From: a bacterium | Lineage (GTDB): Bacteria > CAIWAD01 | Reading direction: 5' to 3' | DNA length: 29,113 nucleotides | Assembly: GCA_030685015.1 (NCBI GenBank) | Contig: JAUXWS010000006.1 | Span: forward strand, 1-29,113 | Shown here: positions 3,808 to 28,974 of the stretch, one piece after another | Position numbering within the stretch: the stretch's first letter is position 1 | Layout of the letters: every line of letters starts with the position of its first letter | Notes under the pieces: generated by a model | Databases searched by the model: none | Told to the model about the DNA's origin: nothing | The model's input: the letters and a program-made list of their open reading frames with translations, nothing else | Made by a program: the position numbers and the translations under genes

Positions 3808-4028
3808 CTAGTGGACTGATTCTCGTGAGATGACGGATGATGAAGTGCATAGGCCGTCCAGCGCAAGGCGTCCGCGCCGCCGGCGCAGTGGGGCTGCGTC
3901 AAGGCGCGGCAACGCGGCGATGGGCGGCCTGGGCGCTTCCCGTAGGGTTTGCGAGGTTGCCAACGATCCATCTCCCATGCATTGTGCAGCAAACAGCATT
4001 CGGCAGATCACGGGAATTGGTCCACTAG
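3808..4028. mobile_element. MITE-like element with long terminal inverted repeats, CTAG-bounded
   Basis: The left end CTAGTGGACTGATTCTCGTG and the reverse complement of the right end, CTAGTGGACCAATTCCCGTG, match at 17 of 20 bases. The match continues more weakly to about 35 bases. The 221-bp unit carries no convincing gene. Its right CTAG (4025-4028) is also the left CTAG of the next element. It resembles a miniature inverted-repeat transposable element; the transposase family that would move it is not in the window. Confidence 0.65.
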
Positions 4029-4194
4029 CAGCCTGTCGGGCTTGGGCCTTGGATGGGATTCGCGCCCAAATCGTGGCCGGTTTTTCGGAATTTTCGAAGA
4101 GCATACTGGTGGTCTGTTCAAGAAAATTGCGGAAAAATCCGGACCGATTGGGGCGATGAAGACCGCCAAGTGGCCAAGTCCGACAGACTGCTAG
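4025..4194 (+). mobile_element. MITE-like repeat, copy A
   Basis: A 170-bp unit flanked by CTAG. The left end CTAGCAGCCTGTCGGGCTTG and the reverse complement of the right end, CTAGCAGTCTGTCGGACTTG, differ at two bases. Inside lies GGGGCGATGAAGACC, which recurs in copy B (8364-8524) and, with one change, in copy C (21015-21169). The right-hand CTAG supplies the TAG stop codon of lexA. No gene of its own is evident. Confidence 0.8.
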
Positions 4195-8075: not shown

Positions 8076-8923
8076 CGGACGGCCCTGGGCTATGCGCCCG
8101 GCCCGGAGGGCCCCGTCCCGGCCGAGTTCGTCCACATGAGCGTGCCCTATGCGGCGGGCGCGCTCGATTCCTCCACCGAGGACCTTCTGCGCTGGCAGAC
8201 GAGCCTGCACGGCGGGAGGCTGCTCACGGCGGAGGGCCTGGGCGAGATGGGCAGGCCCGTGCGCGAAGACTATGCCATGGGGCTGATCCGGCGCGAGCAG
8301 AAGGGGATCGTCGTGCTGGAGCATGGCGGCGGGATCGAGGGCTTCAACACGCAGCTGGCCTGGCAGCCTTTCGGACTTGGCCGCTTCGCGGTCTTCATCG
8401 CCCCTGCCGGTCCCATTCGACGCAGATTTCTTGCGAGTAAATGCCATTACGCGACGCGAGATCTCCGCCGAATCGCCCTCGACATGGGCGCGAATCCCAT
8501 CGAAGGTCCAAGCCCGAAAGGCTGCAGGTATCCGGACCGTCGCATCACGGTGGCGGTTCTGGGCAACTTGAACGACACGGCGCCCGCTGAGATCGCGGGC
8601 CGCCTGGGCGCCTTGGCCCATGGACTGCCCGTGGACCTGCCGGAGCCGAGGCAAGCAGTGGAGCTGCCCCGCGCAGACCTGAGGAGGTGGTCGGCGACGA
8701 TCAACTGACCCCGGACTTCCACATCCGCGTGTTCCTGGAGGGGGACCGGCTCATGGCCCAGGGCACGGGCCAACCGGCATTGCCTCCCTTTGCCGAGGCC
8801 AGGGACCGCTTTATTCTCAAGCCAGTGGATGCCCGGCTGCACTTCACCCGCGACGAGACCGGCCGCGTGTCCAGTGGCGTGCGGCTCCAGGCTGGACGGG
8901 AACTTCCCCTCGTCCGCAAATAG
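8076..8923 (+). pseudogene. Serine hydrolase (beta-lactamase/PBP-like), broken, with in-frame MITE
   Basis: Reads ALGYAPGPEGPVPAEF, then AAGALDSSTEDLLRWQTSLHGG and VVLEHGGGIEGFNTQLAW, the C-terminal half of class C beta-lactamase-like hydrolases including the HGGG motif. A 162-bp insertion (54 codons) then intervenes before RYPDRRITVAVLGNLND. Near 8690 the frame shifts, and the DUF3471-like tail (VGDDQLTPDFHIRVFLEGDR to GRELPLVRK) continues in another frame to 8923. The N-terminal half with the SxxK nucleophile is absent. So the gene has lost its 5' half, gained a MITE and shifted frame. Such enzymes normally act on peptides or esters outside the cytoplasm. Confidence 0.82.
8364..8524 (-). 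mobile_element. MITE-like repeat, copy B, inserted in the serine hydrolase gene
   Basis: 161 bp with inverted ends CAGCCTTTCGGACTTGGCC and, from the other side, CAGCCTTTCGGGCTTGGACC. In reverse orientation it aligns end to end with copy A (162 bp between the CTAG sites), sharing GATGGGATTCGCGCCCA and GGGGCGATGAAGACCGC. The flanks are CTGG and CAGG, not a clean CTAG duplication. Its length with one extra base is a multiple of three and it has no stop on the plus strand, so the host frame stays open through it. Confidence 0.82.
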
Positions 8924-16990: not shown

Positions 16991-18469
16991 ATGCGACGAC
17001 TACGCTTCTGGCATGTCAGCATCCTTGGCGCGTTCCTGCTGGCCTCGGCCGGGGGCGCCCGCTATCGGCTCTCCGACTCCCCTCTCTTCCTGCACGACAT
17101 GCGGGCCGGTCGGGTGGAGTTCGAAGGTCAGGGCAAGCAGTTCATCTTCGAGGCCGACACCCTGCGACAGGAGTCCGCCTTTGGCCTTCGCTATGGCTTG
17201 ACACAACGCCTGGTCTTCGAATTCAGCTATCCCTACCTGATGGAATCGCTTGGCCCCCTTAGCAAGAGCGGCCAGGGGGATCTGGCCACCGCCCTGAGCT
17301 ACCGCCATCCCCTGTCAAACTGGCCCGGCATGAGCCTGGGATTGCGTCAAGCCCTCATTTTTCCCAGCGGGTTCAGAAGGGAACTGGTCGGTTTTGATCG
17401 CTTCACGGGCGGTCGCACCCAGGCGGAAACACTTGTCCAACTTGAGTTTGGAGATCGCCCCCAGGATCTTTCCACTCTTTGGCTGGCGGTCAATGGTGGG
17501 TTGCGCACGGACAACCACCTGGAAAACACCAAGATGCTGTGGGGCGCCTCCATCCGCTATCATCTGGTCCAGCGCTGGCTCTTTCTGGAAAGCGAGCTGG
17601 CCCAGGAGATGGCGACGGACACCAAGGAAGCCACCTACCAGTTCAGTGCCGGACTGGGCGTGAAACTGCCCTGGGGCTTCCAGGTACGGCTTGGGGCCGA
17701 AGAGCGGGTCATCTACGAATTGGACCGCTTTGGCCTTTATGCCGCCCTCGGCTGGAGCCGGCAACCGGTCATCCCCATCCGCATGCGCTATCGCCATCTC
17801 CACCCCGGACTGCAGAAGCGATTGGATGACAAGAACAAAGTCCCCTCCTTCACGCTTGAACCGGGCACCCCGGCCCTCCTGACGGAATCAGGCCGCCTGC
17901 CCTTCCTCCCGTTGAGGGTGGTGCTCCTTCCCTTTATCGAGGCAGATCAAGCGCCTGTGGCCGTCACCCTGTCACAGGCCTTCCATCGTGTCATCGAAGC
18001 GGACAGCAGTTTTCAGGTGGTGCCCCCGGCCGAGGTGGAAGCCTACCTGGACTTTCACCGGATGGCGTCCCGCGACCTGACGGAAGAGACCGCCATCAAT
18101 GAACTGGGGCGCTCCCTCAAGGCGGACCTGGTCCTGCGGGGGCGGATCCTCTCTTATCAACCCCGTCAGTTTCGTGGCCATGCCTTGCCGCCGCTGTTCG
18201 CCCGCAGCCGCCAGGCCGGCACTTTGGAGGCCCAGGCCTGGCTACAACAAGTGGACCATCCGGGGCCACCCCATTCAGCCAAACTAAGCTGGGAGGAGAG
18301 CGGTCCTGGTCGCTGGAGCCTCTTCACGGCCAAGCATGGCTTGCGCGAACGTCCGGGTTCCGCCCTTGAGCGCAGTGCCCTGACTCACCAGCTCCTGGAG
18401 TCCTGGAGCATATTGGCCGCCAACACACTTATGTATGAAGAGACGGAAGTGCTGGTGATAGATAAATGA
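16991..18469 (+). CDS. Outer-membrane barrel-like protein with CsgG/TolB-N-like C-terminal domain
   Basis: 492 residues. A signal peptide (MRRLRFWHVSILGAFLLASA) is followed by about 280 residues of alternating strands (AFGLRYGLTQRLVFEFSYPY, MLWGASIRYHLVQRWLFLES, GAEERVIYELDRFGLYAALG) typical of an outer-membrane barrel. A second part (LRVVLLPFIEADQAPVAVTL, SQAFHRVIEADSSFQVVPPA, INELGRSLKADLVLRGRI) resembles the CsgG/FlgT/LpoB-type fold that assembles envelope structures. The final segment ends in METEVLVIDK-like strands. The ribosome site is weak. The next gene, a lipoprotein, overlaps by ATGA, so the two are probably partners in the envelope. No precise family is recognised. Confidence 0.62.
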   Translation: MRRLRFWHVSILGAFLLASAGGARYRLSDSPLFLHDMRAGRVEFEGQGKQFIFEADTLRQESAFGLRYGLTQRLVFEFSYPYLMESLGPLSKSGQGDLATALSYRHPLSNWPGMSLGLRQALIFPSGFRRELVGFDRFTGGRTQAETLVQLEFGDRPQDLSTLWLAVNGGLRTDNHLENTKMLWGASIRYHLVQRWLFLESELAQEMATDTKEATYQFSAGLGVKLPWGFQVRLGAEERVIYELDRFGLYAALGWSRQPVIPIRMRYRHLHPGLQKRLDDKNKVPSFTLEPGTPALLTESGRLPFLPLRVVLLPFIEADQAPVAVTLSQAFHRVIEADSSFQVVPPAEVEAYLDFHRMASRDLTEETAINELGRSLKADLVLRGRILSYQPRQFRGHALPPLFARSRQAGTLEAQAWLQQVDHPGPPHSAKLSWEESGPGRWSLFTAKHGLRERPGSALERSALTHQLLESWSILAANTLMYEETEVLVIDK

Positions 18470-19989
18470 AAGCGCGACTCTACCATTTGGTAATCTTTCT
18501 AACCGTTTGGTTTGTGGCCTGCGCCAGGCCTCCTCATGAAGCCGAGGACCGCGCCCCGCAGATCCGCAATCTACGGGTGGACATGAGTGGCGCCACGCCA
18601 GGGTCCATCATCATGCTCAGGGCCGACATCACGGATCCCGATGGAGATTCCCTGGATGTCAGTTGGCAGGCAACCGTCGGTCTTATTGTGGCCAGCTTCC
18701 AGGATTCGGCCCGCTGGCAAAGTCCGGACAGCAGTGTCTATGCCAGGATCTTCGTCCAGGCGGTGGATCCGGCGGGCAACCTTGCCGCCGACACCCTCCG
18801 CTTCTGGGTCCACAACCAGGCACCAGTCATCCAGGAGCTGCGCGGGTCGGCCACCACTGTATTGAATGGCAACACCATCACCCTGTTCGGCAGGGTCCAG
18901 GATCCAGATGGGCATCCCGTCACCCTGCAGTGGTCAAGCCCGTGGGGCACCTTCAATCAAAGCACGGGAGACTCCGTCCGCTGGACCGTGCCTGATTCCA
19001 CCATGCACGCCTGGGCCAGTCTGGCGGCGCTTGACATCTACGGCGCCGTGACGAGGGACACCCTCAGGGTCATCGTCTACACAGAGGTGGGCTGCGCCTG
19101 GATCATCAGCCAAGGCGAACAGGAGATCGTCAAACTGTCCTCCATTGGTGACGAGTTGCTGCGCCTGGGTGGCTTCACGGACTTGCAGGATCTGGATCTG
19201 GACCCCGAGAACCGCCGCTTGTGGGTCTGTGAGGGTCAACCCCCTGCCCTGCACAGCTATGACTTGCGCGGCAGGCCGCTCTTCTCTGTCACGGCAGGAT
19301 TTGCCCGGCCTACCCGCCTGCGCAGCTGGTACCGAACCGGCAGCGTGCTGGTGCTGGATGGCGACAGCGCCCAAGTGGTCGAGATCAACCTCTTCGGCGA
19401 CCGCGAACTGCGCCGCATCGGCGGCCTGACCCGTCCCAACGCCCTGGATATTGATCAGCGCACCGGCGCGGTGTGGATCTGCGACGAGGGCAGCAACAAC
19501 CTCTTCCACATCGCCAACGGCTATGACGGCAGCATCGAGGACGTCTGGAACAGCCCGCACGTCATCCGCCGGGACGGCTACCAGTTTCCGGTGGACATCT
19601 CGGTGGAGGATTCGACCGGCGCCTGCTGGCTGGTGGACAAGGAGGCGGGGATGCTGGTCCGCTACGCGGCCAACGGCATCGACAGCCTCGTCGTCACGGG
19701 CTTCCAGAACCCGGTGGCCGTGTCGGCCACTTGGTCCCAGGGATTGTGCTGGGTGCTGGACAGGGGCCTGAACTCGCGGGCCCTGCGCTACTTCTTCGAC
19801 CAGGAGCAGGTGGCGGTGGACGGCCTGCTCTTTCCGAAAGATTTGGCATTCAACCGCATCGATTCGCATGTCTGGGTGCTTGACACGGAGCGCAACCGTG
19901 TGCTGCGCCTACGCCCGGACGGCAACTTGGCCGGCGCCTGGACAGACTTCGATTTCCCCACCCGCATCCGCATCAACGGCGGCTACTAA
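18466..19989 (+). CDS. Lipoprotein with Ig/PKD-like domains and NHL-type beta-propeller
   Basis: 507 residues. Lipobox with Cys19 in WFVACARP. Two Ig/PKD-like domains follow: APQIRNLRVDMSGATPGSII with DPDGDSLDVSWQA, and APVIQELRG with DPDGHPVTLQWSSPWG. From about residue 210 come repeated blades such as LQDLDLDPENRRLWVCEGQP, RPNALDIDQRTGAVWICDEG, FPVDISVEDSTGACWLVDKE and FPKDLAFNRIDSHVWVLDTE, an NHL/SMP-30-like propeller. Such folds bind proteins or sugars outside the cytoplasm. It starts inside the stop of the barrel gene (ATGA). Its 3' end overlaps the convergent TetR gene by 17 bases. Confidence 0.82.
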   Translation: MKARLYHLVIFLTVWFVACARPPHEAEDRAPQIRNLRVDMSGATPGSIIMLRADITDPDGDSLDVSWQATVGLIVASFQDSARWQSPDSSVYARIFVQAVDPAGNLAADTLRFWVHNQAPVIQELRGSATTVLNGNTITLFGRVQDPDGHPVTLQWSSPWGTFNQSTGDSVRWTVPDSTMHAWASLAALDIYGAVTRDTLRVIVYTEVGCAWIISQGEQEIVKLSSIGDELLRLGGFTDLQDLDLDPENRRLWVCEGQPPALHSYDLRGRPLFSVTAGFARPTRLRSWYRTGSVLVLDGDSAQVVEINLFGDRELRRIGGLTRPNALDIDQRTGAVWICDEGSNNLFHIANGYDGSIEDVWNSPHVIRRDGYQFPVDISVEDSTGACWLVDKEAGMLVRYAANGIDSLVVTGFQNPVAVSATWSQGLCWVLDRGLNSRALRYFFDQEQVAVDGLLFPKDLAFNRIDSHVWVLDTERNRVLRLRPDGNLAGAWTDFDFPTRIRINGGY

Positions 19990-20716
19990 GCCCATTCATG
20001 AAGAGATTCATGATCTCGTCGGCCATCTCTGTGGCCGTGCGTAGTTCTCCGCCGTCCTGGAAGGCCTGGGTGTAGACGTTAAGGGTCTCCAGGAAGGTGG
20101 CGCAAAGTCGATCGGCATCCAGGCGGTGCAGCTCGCCAAGGTCCATGCCCCTGCTGATCACGTTGCGGATTCGGTCCCGCATCTCCTCGTGCAGTCGCTG
20201 GGACTGATGGTGCCAGGGATTGTCGGCCGGCTGCCTCAGGCGGTGCTGAAACTGCCGGTGCATGACGAAAAAATCCAGGTGCTTCCGGTAGTAGATGAGG
20301 AACATGACACAGAGAGCGCGCAACTGCAGGGCGGCGCCCCCCTCCCCGACCACTGACTTGCGCAGGATGCCCAACAGATCCTGGTATCCGTCCGCCAGGA
20401 TGCTGTGGAAGAGGTGCTCCTTGCTGGTGAAGAACTGGTACAGTGTCGGCTTGGCGAATTCGGCCTGACGGGCAATTTCATCCAGGGTGGTGCCGGTGAA
20501 GCCATGCTTGGCGAAGTGCTGGCGGGCGACATCCAGAATTTCACGGCGACGTTGGCTGCGTTCCCGGGCCCGCCGCCCCAGCGGCGCCTCCTCGTCGGCC
20601 ATGTCTGCTGGTGGTGAAGCGTTTCGCGGTTGCATGCCCTGGGCCACTTGAAGGAAGGTTGAGGCGGGCAAGGCTGGTTGTCGCGCCTCCGGGGCCAGCA
20701 CGTCATGGTTGTCCAT
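19973..20716 (-). CDS. TetR-family transcriptional regulator
   Basis: 247 residues from ATG at 20716, with AAGGGAGGACC upstream. After a disordered 50-residue start comes the DNA-binding domain: RRREILDVARQHFAKHGFTG, TTLDEIARQAEFAKPTLYQF, FTSKEHLFHSILADGYQDLL. The C-terminal domain (LCVMFLIYYRKHLDFFVMHR, FLETLNVYTQAFQDGG) fits the TetR_C_7/AcrR-like groups. The ligand and targets are unknown. It converges on the propeller lipoprotein gene. The long N-terminal extension is unusual for the family; an internal ATG (MADEEAPLGRR) could be the true start. Confidence 0.88.
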   Translation of the reverse strand: MDNHDVLAPEARQPALPASTFLQVAQGMQPRNASPPADMADEEAPLGRRARERSQRRREILDVARQHFAKHGFTGTTLDEIARQAEFAKPTLYQFFTSKEHLFHSILADGYQDLLGILRKSVVGEGGAALQLRALCVMFLIYYRKHLDFFVMHRQFQHRLRQPADNPWHHQSQRLHEEMRDRIRNVISRGMDLGELHRLDADRLCATFLETLNVYTQAFQDGGELRTATEMADEIMNLFMNGLSSRR

Positions 20717-21291
20717 CGGTCCTCCCTTGTTTGGCCGCACCAATCTGGCACTTGGGCAATGTACTGGCAAGTAAAATTGGAAACCTAATGGAAGACATTT
20801 GATTTCATTATGGTGGTCAATCAGATACCATGAAGTCTTGTCTCAGGCGGGACGGCGTCCGCATTCGTCCTGATCAGCCCCAGCCAACAACGCCTCAACC
20901 CATTGGCAAATTGTCCATGTCCGTCGTGCGCTTGGAAGGGTCCCAAATTGAAGGGGGGCACCCCCGAAACATGGGTGGCGCCACCCCCCGTGGACTCGGA
21001 GAGATGTGTTGCGAAGCCTTGAGTCCTTCGTGGTCTTCCTCGCCCTTGGTGGCCTGGATTTTTCGCAGCGTCCTTTCACATACCACCAGCATGCGCCGCG
21101 AGATCTCCAAGGAACCGGTCTCGACCGAAGGTGAATCCAGTCAAAGGCCCAGGCCCGACCGACCGCTTGAGCGAAAGAATGGCGGCAAGGTTTCGTCCTC
21201 GCCACAATCTTTGTCACTTTTGTTGCGCTGGAATCCACCCAAGGACTGATTTGTTGTTTTCATCGGGACGATAAAGAATTGTCATTGCTGG
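20717..21291. other. Intergenic region with MITE copy C and a GC palindrome
   Basis: About 575 bases between the TetR gene and the signalling cassette. GGGTGGCGCCACCC (20973-20986) is a perfect palindrome inside a G/C-run region, and 21015-21169 is the diverged third MITE copy. The short frames on both strands are not convincing genes. The last 50 bases should hold the promoter of the kinase gene. Confidence 0.55.
21015..21169 (-). mobile_element. MITE-like repeat, copy C, diverged
   Basis: Read on the minus strand, it aligns with copies A and B: CGGGCCTGGGCCTTTGACTG at the start, GGAGATCTCGCG as in B, GCATGCTGGTGGTATGT as in A, GCGAAAAATCC as in A, and GGGCGAGGAAGACCACGAAG near the end. The terminal inverted repeats are degraded (GGTCGGGCCTGG versus a shortened AGTCC/AAGGCT end), and no CTAG flank remains. 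It is an old copy. Confidence 0.68.
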
Positions 21292-23085
21292 ATGATCATG
21301 CAGATTTCAGGCCGCTCCCTGCGGGTTCACATGACCCTTTATTCCGCGCTCACCCTGCTCCTGACGCTGGGCCTGGTGATCGTGGTGGCATGGTTCCCGC
21401 TCAGCAATCGCCTTCTATCAAGTGTGGAGCTGGCCCTCTCCCATGACGCCACCATGCGGGCGCGGGCCGTGGACGAGACCTTGCGTCGGGCCTGTGAACT
21501 GGCGTGGCAGGTTTCCAGCAGGACGGCGGCGCGGATCACCACGGCCGAGCTTGATCGTGGCATGATCAGCCTCGAGGAGGCGCGAGCCGCCCTGTTGCCC
21601 CGCCTGCGCGATGCGTTGGATTTCTCCCATGAGATGAAGGGTCTGGTGCGCATTGATTTGCGGGGCAGAATCCTGGCGAGGATCGGTCCCGACCTGATGG
21701 ACAGCCTGACAGATCGCCAGGCGGACTTTCCCATCCTTGAAGCACCACCCGTTCGCTATGCCTCCCGAGGGCACCAGGGCATGTCCCGCATCTTTTTCCT
21801 GGGCCATGATCCCCATGTCATCATCTTCACCCCCGTTTATTCACCGGACCAGCGAGTGGTGGCACAAGACTTGTTGTTGTTTCGCCTGGACGCCTTGCCA
21901 CCGATCATGGCCGCCCCCATGCCCCAGGGGCAATCCGTGTCGTGCCTCTTGCTGGGGGCGAAGGGCGACCAAGCGGCACCGGAGGTCTTGCTGCGCACCG
22001 GCGGCAGCAAGGCGCTGCCGGGAATTCCCGCGCTGACCCAGAGTTATGAACACCTGCTGAATACAGAGACGCTTGTGGGTCGGTTGGATGAGCTGCTGCT
22101 GTGCGCCACGCCTTTGAACATCAGCAACATGTGGCTGGTGGTCGGGTCGCCACAGAAGGCCATGACCGGAGAAGCCAGAAGCTGGCTGATCACCATCCTT
22201 GCCATCGTCCTCGGACTGGGCTTCCTGGGGCTGCTCTGCAGCCTCTTGTTGCTTCGCCCCCTGCGGGACAAGATCTTGGTGGCACAGGAGGAATTGCGCC
22301 GGCAGGTGGCGGAGACGGAGAAGACCCGCGCCAAGCTGGAGGCGCAAAGCGACTTGCTGCTGGAGCGGAACGAGGATCTGCGCCATTTCGCTTACGCCAG
22401 TGCCCATGACTTGAAAAGTCCGCTCATCAGCATTGGTGGCCACGCCCAGATGCTGCTGGACCGCCTGGGGCCCGATCTGCCGCCTGAACGGCGCCTGAGT
22501 CTGGAGTTCATCCTTTCAGGCACCAAGCGGTTGTTCCAGCATGTCAACGACATGCTGGAGTACTCCCGTGCCGCTGAGATCGAGCCGCGGCTGACCCGCC
22601 TGTCGCTGGACCGACTATGCCAGGAGATCCTCTCCAGCCTGGACGGTCGCATCCGCGAAAGTCGCGCCATCATTCGCCTGGGCGAGACGCCGGACATCTT
22701 CAGCGACCGCCGGTTGTTGCGCATGGTTCTTCAGAACCTGGTGGACAACGCCCTCTGCTATCGCCAGCCCGACCGGGCCCCGGAAGTGGACATCCAGGCC
22801 GAGGCGGCTCCCCATGAGGTGGTGATTCGCGTGAAGGACAATGGACTGGGCATTTCTCCCGATCACCAGCCCCAGATTTTCGAAAGCTTCTACCGCCTGC
22901 ATGAGGATGCCAAGATCCCCGGCACGGGCCTGGGTCTGGCCATTTGCCTGCGGGCGGTGCGACGTCTGGAGGGAACAATCGAGCTGGAGTCGGAGCCCGG
23001 ACAAGGGAGCTGCTTCACGGTGCGCCTGCCGCAGCCACCTCCCGAGGCCCTGCAGGAAGACGACGAGGGCACCCCCCTTGCCTGA
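21292..23085 (+). CDS. Membrane sensor histidine kinase
   Basis: 597 residues. A transmembrane segment near the start (LTLLLTLGLVIVVAWFPL) and a second at about 300-322 (ITILAIVLGLGFLGLLCSLL) bracket an extracytoplasmic sensor region of about 260 residues with Cache-like features. A coiled linker follows. The kinase core has the H-box with His372 in ASAHDLKSPLISI, the N-box QNLVDNALCY, and the G-boxes VKDNGLGIS and GTGLGLAI, close to the phytochrome-type HisKA group. It should phosphorylate a response regulator, most simply the one at 25639. The start is ATG ATC ATG; either ATG could be used. It is followed after 13 bases by a ferredoxin gene. Confidence 0.9.
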   Translation: MIMQISGRSLRVHMTLYSALTLLLTLGLVIVVAWFPLSNRLLSSVELALSHDATMRARAVDETLRRACELAWQVSSRTAARITTAELDRGMISLEEARAALLPRLRDALDFSHEMKGLVRIDLRGRILARIGPDLMDSLTDRQADFPILEAPPVRYASRGHQGMSRIFFLGHDPHVIIFTPVYSPDQRVVAQDLLLFRLDALPPIMAAPMPQGQSVSCLLLGAKGDQAAPEVLLRTGGSKALPGIPALTQSYEHLLNTETLVGRLDELLLCATPLNISNMWLVVGSPQKAMTGEARSWLITILAIVLGLGFLGLLCSLLLLRPLRDKILVAQEELRRQVAETEKTRAKLEAQSDLLLERNEDLRHFAYASAHDLKSPLISIGGHAQMLLDRLGPDLPPERRLSLEFILSGTKRLFQHVNDMLEYSRAAEIEPRLTRLSLDRLCQEILSSLDGRIRESRAIIRLGETPDIFSDRRLLRMVLQNLVDNALCYRQPDRAPEVDIQAEAAPHEVVIRVKDNGLGISPDHQPQIFESFYRLHEDAKIPGTGLGLAICLRAVRRLEGTIELESEPGQGSCFTVRLPQPPPEALQEDDEGTPLA

Positions 23086-23098
23086 GGTCCGACCTCCC

Positions 23099-23290
23099 GT
23101 GCCACCGCGTGTCTTGGGTGAAAAATGTACTGGATGTGGCGCCTGCATTTCCACCTGCCGGCCGCGGGCCATCGAGATGCTGCTGCTCGAATCTGGGCGC
23201 AAGGCGGCCTATATTCACAAGAATCACTGTGTTCTTCATGGGGATTGCCTTGTGGCATGCCCCCATGAGGCCATCGTCGTGCCACGATGA
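23099..23290 (+). CDS. Small two-cluster ferredoxin, second cluster motif with His for Cys
   Basis: 63 residues from GTG at 23099; TTG at 23078 inside the kinase end is an alternative. EKCTGCGACISTCRPRAIEM is a standard CxxCxxCxxxC cluster site. The second site, NHCVLHGDCLVACPHEAI, has His where the second Cys is expected (CxxHxxCxxxC). So one normal 4Fe-4S cluster and one 3Fe-4S or His-ligated cluster are predicted. Function in a kinase cassette is unknown; it could give a redox signal to the flanking kinases or serve an unrelated electron transfer. Same strand and spacing as the kinases suggests co-transcription. Confidence 0.75.
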   Translation: MPPRVLGEKCTGCGACISTCRPRAIEMLLLESGRKAAYIHKNHCVLHGDCLVACPHEAIVVPR

Positions 23291-23494
23291 TCTCTATTGT
23301 GTTCAGGTGGCTTACCGGCATTCGCATAGCCGAGCTGCGGCCCGCCCACGACCGAGTTCATGCCACGTGTTGCGTGAACCGGCCTCATTTAGGCGGGCAG
23401 GCTTCAGGCGCGGCCCCCGTGCTTGGCTGTGAATCCTCGATCCTGCCTGGTCGATAACTCCAATTGCATCACAATCAAATCGCTGCCAGGGCCT

Positions 23495-25642
23495 ATGCAA
23501 CACATGGACGAATCCGCACTTGCAGGTGGACCAGTCAACCGGTTGAGATACCTGGAGGATCTGGCCGAACCCTACTGCGCCTTTGATTTGGATCATAAGC
23601 TCATCTACCTCAACCCTGCTGCTGAAGTCCTGCTTGGAAGGTCTTCGGCGGCACTTCTCGGACTTAACCAGCAGGACATCTTCGGACCCGAGATCACAGG
23701 CCAGATCAAGCAGCAGGAAGAAGCCCGTGCCCAAGGCCGGGCCACGGTCTATGAGGCGGAGGGGCGGGATGTCGAAGGAAGGGTGGTCACCTATTTGATC
23801 ACGGGCAGCCCCCTCCATGATGAGGCAGGAATCGTGGTGGGCAGTTGTGGCGTCATCCGCGACATCACGGCCAGACACCGTCGCGAGCAGGAGGCGGAAC
23901 ACCGCAGCCAGCTCACGCTGGCCATGGCCCAGTCCATGCGGGCCCTTCTGACCCAGGCGGACTTCAACCAGGCCCTGCGGGACACACTTCAGAACATTGG
24001 ACTGACCCTCAACGCGCGCAGTGGCGCTCTCTTCCACCGGGACGCCGCCGGCGTCTTCCACCCCACCCACGAGTGGCAGGACGAGGCGGACCTGCTGGAG
24101 GCCCGCGTGGTGCGCCACTCCGACATCGACGAGCGTCGATTCCCCTGGTGGTTGGGCCAGCTGCAGAAGCACCGGCTTCTCTACATTCCATCCCCGGAAA
24201 GCCTCCCGCCCGAGGCCGTGCTGGAGCGCCGCGCCATGGCCGTCCTGGACATCTCCAGCCTGCTCGGCATGGCCATTGTCTATGGCGGGCGGCAGCAGGG
24301 CTTTGTCACCTTTGAAAATCCCAAACGCATCGAGCATTACAGTCCGCAGGATCTCTCCCTGTTGATGATGCTGTCCGATGTCTTCGCTTCTTCGCTGAAC
24401 CGGCAGCAAACGGAGCGGGAGCGAAGCCTGCTCATCACGGCCGTGGAGCAGTCGGAGGCATCGGTCGTCATCACCGACGCCACAGGGACGATCCTCTACT
24501 TGAACCCAGCCTTTGAGCGCATCACGGGCTATTCGCGCCGGGAAGCCCTTGGTCGGAATCCGCGGATCCTGAAAAGCGGCAAGCAAGACGACGCCTTTTA
24601 CAAGGCCATGTGGGACAACATCAGCATGGGGCTCACCTGGAACGGCGAACTGGTCAACCGGCGCAAGAACGGCACTCTCTTCCATGAAAGTGTCAGCATC
24701 AGCCCGGTGCAGAACGCATCCGGCGAGACCACCCATTTCGTGGCCGTCAAACGCGATCTGACACATGAGCGGCAACTGGAATCCCAACTGCGACAGGCCA
24801 AGACCCTGGAGGCGGTGGGGCGTCTGGCTGCCGGCGTGGCCCATGAGATCAACACGCCCACCCAGTACATCTGGGACAACATTGCCTTCGTCCGTGACTC
24901 GCTGGACAGCCTGCTGCCGCTGGTGGGCAAGGCGCTTCATGGTGCCTTGCGCTTGTCCGCATGCGAAGAAGGAACACAGCTGGCGGAGGAGATCCTGGCG
25001 GGGACGATCGGGCTGGACCTGGATTTTCTGCTGGACGAGATCCCGCGGGCCCTGGCCCAAAGCCAGGAGGGCGTGCAGCGCGTGACCAGCATCGTGCAGG
25101 CCATGAAGGAATTCTCACACCCGGGCAGCAGCAGCAAGCAAGCGGGAGACATCAACCGCATGCTGAGGTCCACCATGCTGGTGGCGCGCAGCGAATGGAA
25201 ACACGTGGCCACCATTGAACTGGACCTGGCCCAGGACTTGCCTGAAATCGCCTGTCTGGTGGCCGACCTGAATCAGGTCTTTCTCAATCTCATCACCAAT
25301 GCCGCGCAGGCCATCGGTGAAACCGGGGCCGGTCAGGGTGAAGTTCCGAAGGGCAAGATCACCGTGCGCACGCGGCAGCGTGACCAGGAGATCCTCATCG
25401 AAGTGGAGGACACCGGTGGCGGCATCCCGGCGGATGTTCTGCCCAACATCTTCACCCCCTTCTTCACGACGAAGGAGGTCGGCATGGGGACCGGCCAGGG
25501 TCTGGCCGTGGCGCAGAATGTGGTCGTGGACAAGCATCAAGGTCGCATCGAGGTGGAGACCCATGAATCGATCAGCTCAATATTCCGTATCTTCCTTCCC
25601 TTGAGTACCGTCGACGCGCTGCCATCAGGAGATCTTGCATGA
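23495..25642 (+). CDS. PAS-GAF-PAS sensor histidine kinase, cytoplasmic
   Basis: About 715 residues from ATG at 23495 (ATG at 23504 and an upstream TTG at 23423 are alternatives). PAS1 is YLEDLAEPYCAFDLDHKLIY through GSCGVIRDITAR. A GAF-like domain (LTLNARSGALFHRDAAGVFH to QGFVTFENPKRIEHYS) follows, then PAS2 (AVEQSEASVVITDATGTILY through FVAVKRDLTHERQ). The kinase has His450 in GVAHEINTPTQYI, the N-box NQVFLNLITNAAQA and the G-box VEDTGGGIPADVLPNIFTPF with GTGQGLAVAQ. No membrane segment. The TGA overlaps the ATG of the response regulator, so they are a two-component pair. PAS and GAF domains could bind haem, flavin or a small ligand; no binding residues were identified. Confidence 0.9.
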   Translation: MQHMDESALAGGPVNRLRYLEDLAEPYCAFDLDHKLIYLNPAAEVLLGRSSAALLGLNQQDIFGPEITGQIKQQEEARAQGRATVYEAEGRDVEGRVVTYLITGSPLHDEAGIVVGSCGVIRDITARHRREQEAEHRSQLTLAMAQSMRALLTQADFNQALRDTLQNIGLTLNARSGALFHRDAAGVFHPTHEWQDEADLLEARVVRHSDIDERRFPWWLGQLQKHRLLYIPSPESLPPEAVLERRAMAVLDISSLLGMAIVYGGRQQGFVTFENPKRIEHYSPQDLSLLMMLSDVFASSLNRQQTERERSLLITAVEQSEASVVITDATGTILYLNPAFERITGYSRREALGRNPRILKSGKQDDAFYKAMWDNISMGLTWNGELVNRRKNGTLFHESVSISPVQNASGETTHFVAVKRDLTHERQLESQLRQAKTLEAVGRLAAGVAHEINTPTQYIWDNIAFVRDSLDSLLPLVGKALHGALRLSACEEGTQLAEEILAGTIGLDLDFLLDEIPRALAQSQEGVQRVTSIVQAMKEFSHPGSSSKQAGDINRMLRSTMLVARSEWKHVATIELDLAQDLPEIACLVADLNQVFLNLITNAAQAIGETGAGQGEVPKGKITVRTRQRDQEILIEVEDTGGGIPADVLPNIFTPFFTTKEVGMGTGQGLAVAQNVVVDKHQGRIEVETHESISSIFRIFLPLSTVDALPSGDLA

Positions 25643-26829
25643 GTCTGCCGGACAATCCCAAAGTGCTCTTCGTTGATGACGACCCCAACATTCTCGAGAG
25701 TTTTCGTCGCACCTTCCGCAATCACCTGGACTTCGACACGGCCGAAAGCGGCCAAACCGCCCTCATGATGCTGCGCGAGCGCGGTCCTTTTGCCGTGATT
25801 GTCAGCGACCAGCGCATGCCCCAGATGACCGGCATCGCCCTGCTGCGGGAGGTGCACAAGGCCTTCCCCGACATCGTGCGCATCATGCTCACGGGGAACG
25901 CCGATCAGCAAACGGCCATCGACGCGGTCAACGGCGGGCACATCCATCGCTTCCTGACCAAGCCCTGCCCGCCGGCCACCATCCTCAACGCGGTCCAGGA
26001 AGGGCTGCGCATCTGGACCCAGCTGCAAACCGAGCACGAACTGCTTGAGGGAACTCTGTCAGGAAGCATCCGCGTCATGACGGAGGTGCTGGCCACCATC
26101 CATCCCGCCACGGCCGATCAGAATCAGCGCATCCTGCGCATGATGCGCCACGTGGTGAAGTCCCTGCGCTTGAACCACACATGGCAGTATGAGATCGCCG
26201 CCATGCTGTCACAGATCGGCTGCATCGTCCTGGACGCGGATCTGCTGGCCAAGGTGCACGCCGGCTATGACTTGAATGAGGATGAGACCCGGCACGTCCA
26301 CGCCCATCCGGAGATCGGGGCCCGGCTCATCCGCCACCTGCCCCGGTTGGAGGCAGCCGCGGACATGATCGCCCGGCAGCTCACACCACTTGGCGAGCGT
26401 TTGGAGCTGCCGCTGGCCGACCTCACGCCCGCGGAGATCGGCGGCCACATTCTGCAGGCGGCCGTCCTCATCGACTTGTCGATGCGCAGGGGCCGGCCTT
26501 ACAAGGAGGCCGTGGAACACCTGCATGGGAGGGCCAAAGGCATCCGCCGGGATGTCCTGGACGCCCTGCAGAATCTGCGTCTGGAATCCGCCGTCCTCGA
26601 GAAGAAGCCGGTCCGCATGAAGGATCTGCGGGTGGGGCAGTTGCTGGCGGATGACGTCCTGGCCAGCAACGGCATCACCCTGGCTGTGAAAGGGCAGGTG
26701 ATTTCCGATTTGATGTTGGAGCGCATCCGCGCCTTCGACCAGGGGGTGGGACTGCGGGAGCCCTTCCTGATCATGGTGCCAACGGCGGCAGCGCCCTCGG
26801 ATCCTCAGTCGTTCACTGCCAACCAGTAG
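25639..26829 (+). CDS. Response regulator with degenerate HD-GYP output domain
   Basis: 396 residues. The receiver domain has acidic residues Asp13-15 (FVDDDPN), phospho-acceptor Asp57 (VSDQRMP), and Lys108 (FLTKP). The output domain keeps the HD-GYP layout, including HPEIGARLIRHLP, but the metal-binding HD is replaced by SQ (AAMLSQIGCIVLDADLL), and the HHE and GYP motifs are not recognisable. It is therefore probably not an active cyclic-di-GMP phosphodiesterase and may act by protein contact. A C-terminal segment, KDLRVGQLLADDVLASNGIT, is common after such outputs. ATGA overlap with the PAS kinase. Confidence 0.87.
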   Translation: MSLPDNPKVLFVDDDPNILESFRRTFRNHLDFDTAESGQTALMMLRERGPFAVIVSDQRMPQMTGIALLREVHKAFPDIVRIMLTGNADQQTAIDAVNGGHIHRFLTKPCPPATILNAVQEGLRIWTQLQTEHELLEGTLSGSIRVMTEVLATIHPATADQNQRILRMMRHVVKSLRLNHTWQYEIAAMLSQIGCIVLDADLLAKVHAGYDLNEDETRHVHAHPEIGARLIRHLPRLEAAADMIARQLTPLGERLELPLADLTPAEIGGHILQAAVLIDLSMRRGRPYKEAVEHLHGRAKGIRRDVLDALQNLRLESAVLEKKPVRMKDLRVGQLLADDVLASNGITLAVKGQVISDLMLERIRAFDQGVGLREPFLIMVPTAAAPSDPQSFTANQ

Positions 26830-28164: not shown

Positions 28165-28974
28165 CTACTTGAGAAGTGTGAACGATTTGGTGCGCTGGAC
28201 ATCTCCCGCCATCAGGGTATAGGTATAGATGCCACTGGGCAAGTTCGCCGCCTGGAAGTCCACCACGTGATTCCCTCGCGCCACCAGTCCATCGACCAAC
28301 ACGGCCACCTGCTGGCCACGCATGTTGTGCACGACCAACCTGACCTGGTCCGTCTGCTCCAAGGTGAACTCGATGGTCGTGGAAGGATTGAAGGGATTGG
28401 GATAGGCGGGAGCCAGTTCCATGGAGGTCGGGACCTCATGCGCGCCGACCGTCTCCTCGCAAATGGCCATGGTGACGAGATTGCTGTCGAAGGTGACGGC
28501 GCCGTTTCGCGCCAGCACCCTGCCCTCCATGGTCGCCCCGGTTGTCAGCGAGATGGATGTCAGGGCCAGGATGGTTCCCATGAAGTTCGAGTTCGTGCCC
28601 AGTGTCGCGGAACTGCCCACCTGCCAGTACACGTTGCAGGCCTGCGCCCCGTTGATGAACACGACATCACTGCCGGTGGCCGTGATCAGCGTGCTCTCCA
28701 TCTGGAATACGAACACGGCGTTGGCGTCGTTCAACGCATCCAAGGTCAAGGTCCCCGTGATCCCGAACGCGCCTGTGGCCGAGTTGTAGACGCCCGGCAC
28801 CAGGACGGACCCGCCCAGCTCAGGGGGAATGGTCGTGGACGGCCCTCGCCCCGCTGCATCGTCATAGGCTGTCACCAGGTCGACCTTGGCCTGGAGCGCG
28901 ACCGGATCCGCGATGTACTGGGCTCCATTGACCAAGCCAGGCGGGAATCCGGTGACGGCCGTGCCAGGACTTAG
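28165..28974 (-). pseudogene. Ice-binding protein (DUF3494) with sorting domain, 5' end cut by an IS
   Basis: From 28974 the frame reads LSPGTAVTGFPPGLVNGAQY, then VALQAKVDLVTAYDDAAGRG, LGGSVLVPGVYNSATGAFGI, NAVFVFQMESTLITATGSDV, NGAQACNVYWQVGSSATLGT and ILALTSISLTTGATMEGRVL: the DUF3494 beta-solenoid of bacterial ice-binding proteins. The C-terminus (YPNPFNPSTTIEFTLEQTDQ, LPSGIYTYTLMAGDVQRTKS) is an FCB sorting/FlgD-like domain, so the protein was secreted or surface-bound. The start with its signal peptide and first solenoid turns is missing at the IS junction near 28975. The host gene was intact before insertion; internal TTG/GTG starts could still make a cytoplasmic fragment. Confidence 0.88.

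Follow-up and report, generated by a model that had tools for sequence, protein, structure and literature searches.

Does a small ferredoxin encoded between two histidine kinases provide redox input to a two-component pathway, and which of its neighbours belong with it? The question is raised by four genes at positions 21292-26829 of the window (the whole 29,113-nucleotide stretch of DNA analysed here), encoding on the + strand throughout a histidine kinase, a ferredoxin, a PAS-GAF-PAS histidine kinase and a response regulator. The features discussed below are:

19973..20770, - strand: TetR-type regulator, divergent from kinase 1
21292..23085, + strand: kinase 1, sensor histidine kinase; TM 19-37 and 302-320, a putative dCache-like sensor between them, HisKA, HATPase_c
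23078 (TTG)..23290, + strand: dicluster ferredoxin, 70 aa, starting within the kinase 1 3' end; CxxCxxCxxxC, then CxxHxxCxxxCP
23078..23085, + strand: stop/start overlap of kinase 1 and ferredoxin, TTGCCTGA
23126..23158, + strand: first cluster motif, CTGCGACISTC (Cys 17, 20, 23, 27)
23228..23263, + strand: second cluster motif, CVLHGDCLVACP (Cys 51, His 54, Cys 57, Cys 61, Pro 62)
23495..25642, + strand: kinase 2, soluble PAS-GAF-PAS-HATPase_c histidine kinase, without an ortholog in G001 or G002
25639..26829, + strand: response regulator, receiver + HD_5, joined to kinase 2 by ATGA

The first-pass annotation had described four co-directional genes with short gaps. The common direction stands, as does the coupling through ATGA, the regulator starting at 25639 and kinase 2 ending at 25642. 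The short gaps do not: at the first junction the ferredoxin TTG (23078) precedes the end of kinase 1 (23085), so that there is an overlap and no gap, and the second junction measures 204 bp to the likely ATG of kinase 2 at 23495 (132 bp if the alternative TTG at 23423 is used).

Extent of the conserved unit

The genus was sampled with three genomes, the present one (G000), G001 and G002. In all of them the ferredoxin directly follows kinase 1 and its start overlaps the kinase in the +1 frame, the overlap reading TTGCCTGA in G000 and ATGCCTGA in G001 and extending over 20 nt in G002. From this overlap we infer that the two genes are translationally coupled. A programmed frameshift generating a kinase-ferredoxin fusion was considered, the offset being +1 in all three species, and was rejected: the run of C at the G000 junction is absent in the other two.

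At the DNA level, similarity to G002 covers 17053-20569 (the genes for an outer-membrane-like protein, an NHL protein and the TetR-type regulator), the beginning of kinase 1 (from 21281 on) and a stretch that ends, with the ferredoxin, at 23280; the match to G001 stops at 23281. Downstream of the ferredoxin, a valyl-tRNA synthetase is encoded in G002 and a convergent peptidase in G001. Judged by these alignments, the conserved unit consists of kinase 1 and the ferredoxin, and the kinase-ferredoxin-kinase-regulator cassette proposed in the first-pass annotation shrinks to its first two genes, the kinase 2-regulator pair being missing from the locus in both G002 and G001.

On the other side, the TetR gene keeps its position beside kinase 1 in G002 and is next to the contig end in G001. 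A genome of the sister genus (G003) also keeps the outer-membrane protein, the NHL protein and the TetR regulator; past TetR, our reading of its frames gives an open frame with a poly(A) polymerase-like start, a different kinase and an apparent receiver-domain protein, and no ferredoxin is found at the corresponding locus. Among the genomes compared, the arrangement of TetR with kinase 1 and ferredoxin is thus specific to the genus as far as gene order tells.

Three further features of the window were recorded. (i) The outer-membrane-like protein (492 aa, no Pfam family) is ATGA-coupled to the Ig/NHL-repeat protein (507 aa; the two at window 16991-19989), and this pair, which adjoins the TetR gene, is the one kept in the sister genus. 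(ii) An interspersed repeat of approximately 150 bp lies at 4028-4194, 8360-8525 and 21026-21170, with some ten further copies elsewhere in the genome at 70-81% identity; the last of the window copies sits upstream of kinase 1, in a region that is not conserved in G002. (iii) A protein encoded at 28168-28935 (- strand) has an ice-binding-like domain (3.4e-54) and also carries a Por_Secre_tail sorting domain, which makes its secretion by a type IX-like system probable.

Kinase 1 and the ferredoxin

Kinase 1 matches HisKA (3e-11) and HATPase_c (3.8e-28), and its H, N, G1 and G2 boxes are complete (H372 in HDLKSP, NLVDNA, DNGLGI and GTGLGL), so that it has both the phospho-accepting His and the full ATPase boxes that define a sensor histidine kinase. 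Its residues 13-346 are 25% identical to the sensor of a chemoreceptor in another genome (G051), which itself matches dCache_1 at 3.4e-8, under the Pfam cut-off; kinase 1 gives no direct dCache_1 match, and it is through this relative that its extracytoplasmic sensor is probably assigned to the dCache type. No Cys cluster (CxxC-type) motif is present in the kinase 1 sequence, and C552 is the only invariant Cys in the region common to the three kinase 1 sequences; the ferredoxin would therefore be the sole obvious redox centre. No response regulator adjoins the pair in G002 or G001, and the one near it in G000 lies only past kinase 2, not adjacent to kinase 1 and ferredoxin.

The best Pfam match of the ferredoxin is Fer4_7 (E 2.6e-10; 41.0 bits against a curated cut-off of 27). 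It departs from the eight-Cys dicluster pattern (CxxCxxCxxxC twice) in having seven Cys and His54, in each of the three orthologs. The second motif, which the first-pass annotation read correctly as CxxHxxCxxxC, is CVLHGDCLVACP; with its His at the second position and its terminal CP, it conforms to the CXXHXXC(X)nCP pattern of the P450-type ferredoxins. Since a complete CxxCxxCxxxC lies ahead of it, the protein is not a single-cluster ferredoxin.

The gene is real, translated and under selection, as its purifying dN/dS of 0.26-0.37 at dS above 1 argues: across the three species the ferredoxins are 57-59% identical, with dN 0.38-0.39 and dS 1.1-1.4, and the dN/dS of kinase 1 is 0.18-0.29. The first-pass annotation had allowed that the gene might be incidental, should homologous operons lack it, or the His a local change, should relatives restore the Cys. 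Both ideas are weakened, because the kinase 1-ferredoxin pair is present and the motif reads CxLHGDCxVACPH in all three genomes (CRLHGDCLVACPHEAL in G002 and CQLHGDCHVACPHDVI in G001), so that a local change does not account for the His. His54 and each of the seven Cys are invariant in the three orthologs, as are 11 of the 13 positions within the motif-2 block C51-H63; since the three sequences agree at 34 of the 70 positions of the ferredoxin, His54 taken alone is modest evidence. We also observed that GTG GCA TGC CCC (window 23246-23263; L002, L003) is identical in every base in the three species despite an overall dS above 1, which could reflect chance or a DNA/RNA constraint. AlphaFold models were of low confidence (pLDDT 46 for the ferredoxin and 55 for kinase 1) and were set aside.

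Searches beyond the genus returned no comparable pair. (i) A profile built from the three ferredoxins gave scores of 140-161 bits for the genus members and never more than 53 bits for other genomes, and no ortholog of the kinase ferredoxin was found outside the genus among 386 genomes. (ii) The DNA pattern for CxxHGxCxxxCP matched in 45 of these 386 genomes; the 30 matches that were read were for the most part pyridine-nucleotide oxidoreductases with an N-terminal Fer4, motifs of the SdhB type, small P450-type ferredoxins with a single cluster, and chance. (iii) In 80 related ferredoxin loci taken from named genomes, the ferredoxin never has a kinase gene as its direct neighbour, and a clear kinase motif occurs at just one of them, at a distance of approximately 4 kb. 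(iv) A scan of contigs gave generic ferredoxins, none of them with a kinase gene directly adjacent. (v) No P450 (PF00067) match was obtained in the three genus genomes, the control genomes being positive.

Proposed redox signalling and the alternatives

The odd ferredoxin suggests a tie between kinase 1 and the redox state of the cell, and redox input to a two-component pathway, as the first-pass annotation had supposed, is plausible from the gene arrangement. Our best explanation, which we put forward tentatively, is a genus-specific kinase-ferredoxin redox signalling unit. Its two genes would encode a membrane-bound histidine kinase, whose sensor is extracytoplasmic and dCache-like, and a cytoplasmic ferredoxin translationally coupled to it, the coupling matching the output of ferredoxin to the amount of kinase. 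The ferredoxin would act as a redox co-sensor, docking in one oxidation state onto the cytoplasmic half of kinase 1 (DHp/HATPase), and the kinase would in this way integrate an outside ligand with internal electron pressure. The electrons could ultimately come from, for example, 2-oxoacid:ferredoxin oxidoreductases, whose POR domain is found in all three genus genomes. We regard as somewhat unlikely the strictest form of the proposal, a two-protein redox sensor: the transmembrane kinase would depend for its cytoplasmic input on an obligate subunit, the separate [4Fe-4S]/[3Fe-4S] ferredoxin, one of whose clusters would be tuned and flanked by His.

The reading that competes best, and a distinct possibility, makes the ferredoxin an ordinary electron carrier for some oxidoreductase, co-transcribed with an orphan kinase, the linkage being inherited and not functional. 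Small ferredoxins are found in many contexts, the 80 related loci included; the genus is small, so that shared gene order is weak evidence for function, and a linkage seen in three genomes of one genus may simply have been inherited; and the pairs of G002 and G001 are not followed by a response regulator. However, the stop/start overlap has been retained despite drift to approximately 59% identity at dS above 1, no oxidoreductase is adjacent in any of the three genomes, and coupling to a kinase would be an unlikely route for expressing a bulk carrier.

What the second cluster is bears on a further alternative. The first-pass annotation had suggested His ligation, and one can picture a [4Fe-4S] cluster with His54 as fourth ligand, labile to oxidants and sensing O2 or NO. 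His ligation of [4Fe-4S] does occur in the Ni-Fe and Fe-only hydrogenases (PMC6237146), and His54 is invariant across the genus. We nevertheless consider such a cluster improbable, because the CXXHXXC(X)nCP ferredoxins characterised in PMC9868604 and PMC6237146 are [3Fe-4S] proteins whose His is unbound: the crystal structures of M. tuberculosis Fdx and FdxE, both of this type, contain [3Fe-4S], and the His either points away or is bonded to a Glu (PMC9868604), and in M. marinum every ferredoxin of the CXX?XXC(X)nCP class that was examined is [3Fe-4S], anaerobic purification included (PMC6237146). Potentials have been given for proteins of this type: M. marinum Fdx5, a His protein, was titrated at +230 mV, and the value cited for the M. 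tuberculosis protein is -31 mV (PMC6237146). Carrying these single-cluster precedents over to a dicluster protein, our best guess for the kinase ferredoxin is [4Fe-4S]/[3Fe-4S], in which the first cluster would be a normal [4Fe-4S] and the second is most likely a [3Fe-4S] of raised potential, with the conserved His alongside as a non-ligand.

The remaining alternative, that the ferredoxin feeds both kinases and that both phosphorylate the regulator with the HD domain, draws on the common direction of the four genes in G000 and on the coupling of kinase 2 to the regulator, and we judge it very improbable, given the 204-bp gap, the absence of the second pair from the locus in both other genomes, the finding that nothing in the family matches kinase 2 over its full length, and the existence of a paralogous regulator that has a kinase remnant beside it but no ferredoxin. 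This paralogue, 80% identical to the regulator, lies on contig C102 of the present genome (L031:7563-9286, - strand) and is preceded by a truncated kinase remnant of 174 aa that matches kinase 2 with approximately 210 bp missing; no ferredoxin homologue is found on that contig. To judge from these matches, the C102 locus is a duplicated or moved kinase-regulator pair, and the kinase 2-regulator pair is private to the present genome and a later neighbour of kinase 1 and ferredoxin. Kinase 2 is adjacent to the conserved unit but probably outside it, and the pair may have become an output partner in this one genome without being required.

As for what the regulator does, HD-GYP proteins have a catalytic His-Asp where its HD_5 domain reads SQIG. 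The catalytic pair has apparently been lost, and the regulator is probably not an active phosphodiesterase. Its match to the NCBIfam NosR-type c-di-GMP phosphodiesterase regulator model scores 188.9 bits, below the cut-off of 400.

Comparison with known systems

In the literature we found no description of a sensor kinase with a translationally coupled stand-alone ferredoxin, and no characterised dicluster CxxH ferredoxin, the precedents being single-cluster. Kinases with an Fe-S cluster of their own are already known; a separate, coupled ferredoxin that supplies a two-component system with its redox input is a case of which we found no description, and would, if our preferred reading is true, represent a modular way of plugging the status of an electron carrier into signalling. 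It would also provide a biological setting for Cys-to-His dicluster ferredoxins, since such clusters have been characterised, as far as we found, only in the single-cluster partners of P450s.

Four groups of proteins resemble parts of the proposed unit. (i) With Rv0763c Fdx, Rv1786 FdxE, M. marinum Fdx1/5/8/10 and R. palustris 4ID8, the kinase ferredoxin shares the change from Cys to His at position 2 of CxxCxxC(X)nCP. However, the CXXHXXC(X)nCP [3Fe-4S] ferredoxins are single-cluster and mostly P450-adjacent, whereas the kinase ferredoxin has an extra all-Cys motif, a kinase as neighbour and a genus free of P450. (ii) It is like the 2[4Fe-4S] and 7Fe dicluster ferredoxins (Fer4_7) in size, in profile match and in its two CxxxxxCxxxC motifs, and unlike them in that the second Cys of motif 2 is a His in all three orthologs. 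(iii) The same genome encodes a CxxHGxCxxxCP second motif in another dicluster domain, that of a pyridine-nucleotide oxidoreductase of approximately 445 aa with an N-terminal dicluster Fer4 (G000:C70, L147:3058-4413; also G001:C86, L120, and G003:C25, L146:3383-4717). In this Fer4 another residue replaces the second Cys of both motifs, the first reading CxGSGAC or CAGMGAC and the other CxGHGxC. These CxGHGxC oxidoreductases, apparently widespread in other phyla, differ in having their Fer4 fused to FAD/NAD(P) domains. On a possible descent of the kinase ferredoxins from this oxidoreductase domain, a tree groups them with CxxH oxidoreductase domains, and the grouping is gone once His and Gly are masked, so that this link rests solely on those two residues. 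(iv) In the sensor kinases of the CSK and NreB kind the Cys ligands of the Fe-S cluster are in the kinase, and kinase 1 has no such ligands. CSK/Hik2, the functional analogue closest to the proposed unit, is a histidine kinase switched by its own [3Fe-4S] cluster (Em about -15 mV), reduced ferredoxin being without effect (PMC6949291). The proposal has in common with it a histidine kinase possibly under the control of a [3Fe-4S]-type cluster; in CSK/Hik2, however, the cluster is inside the kinase and senses plastoquinone (PMC6949291), whereas here it would sit on a separate small protein.
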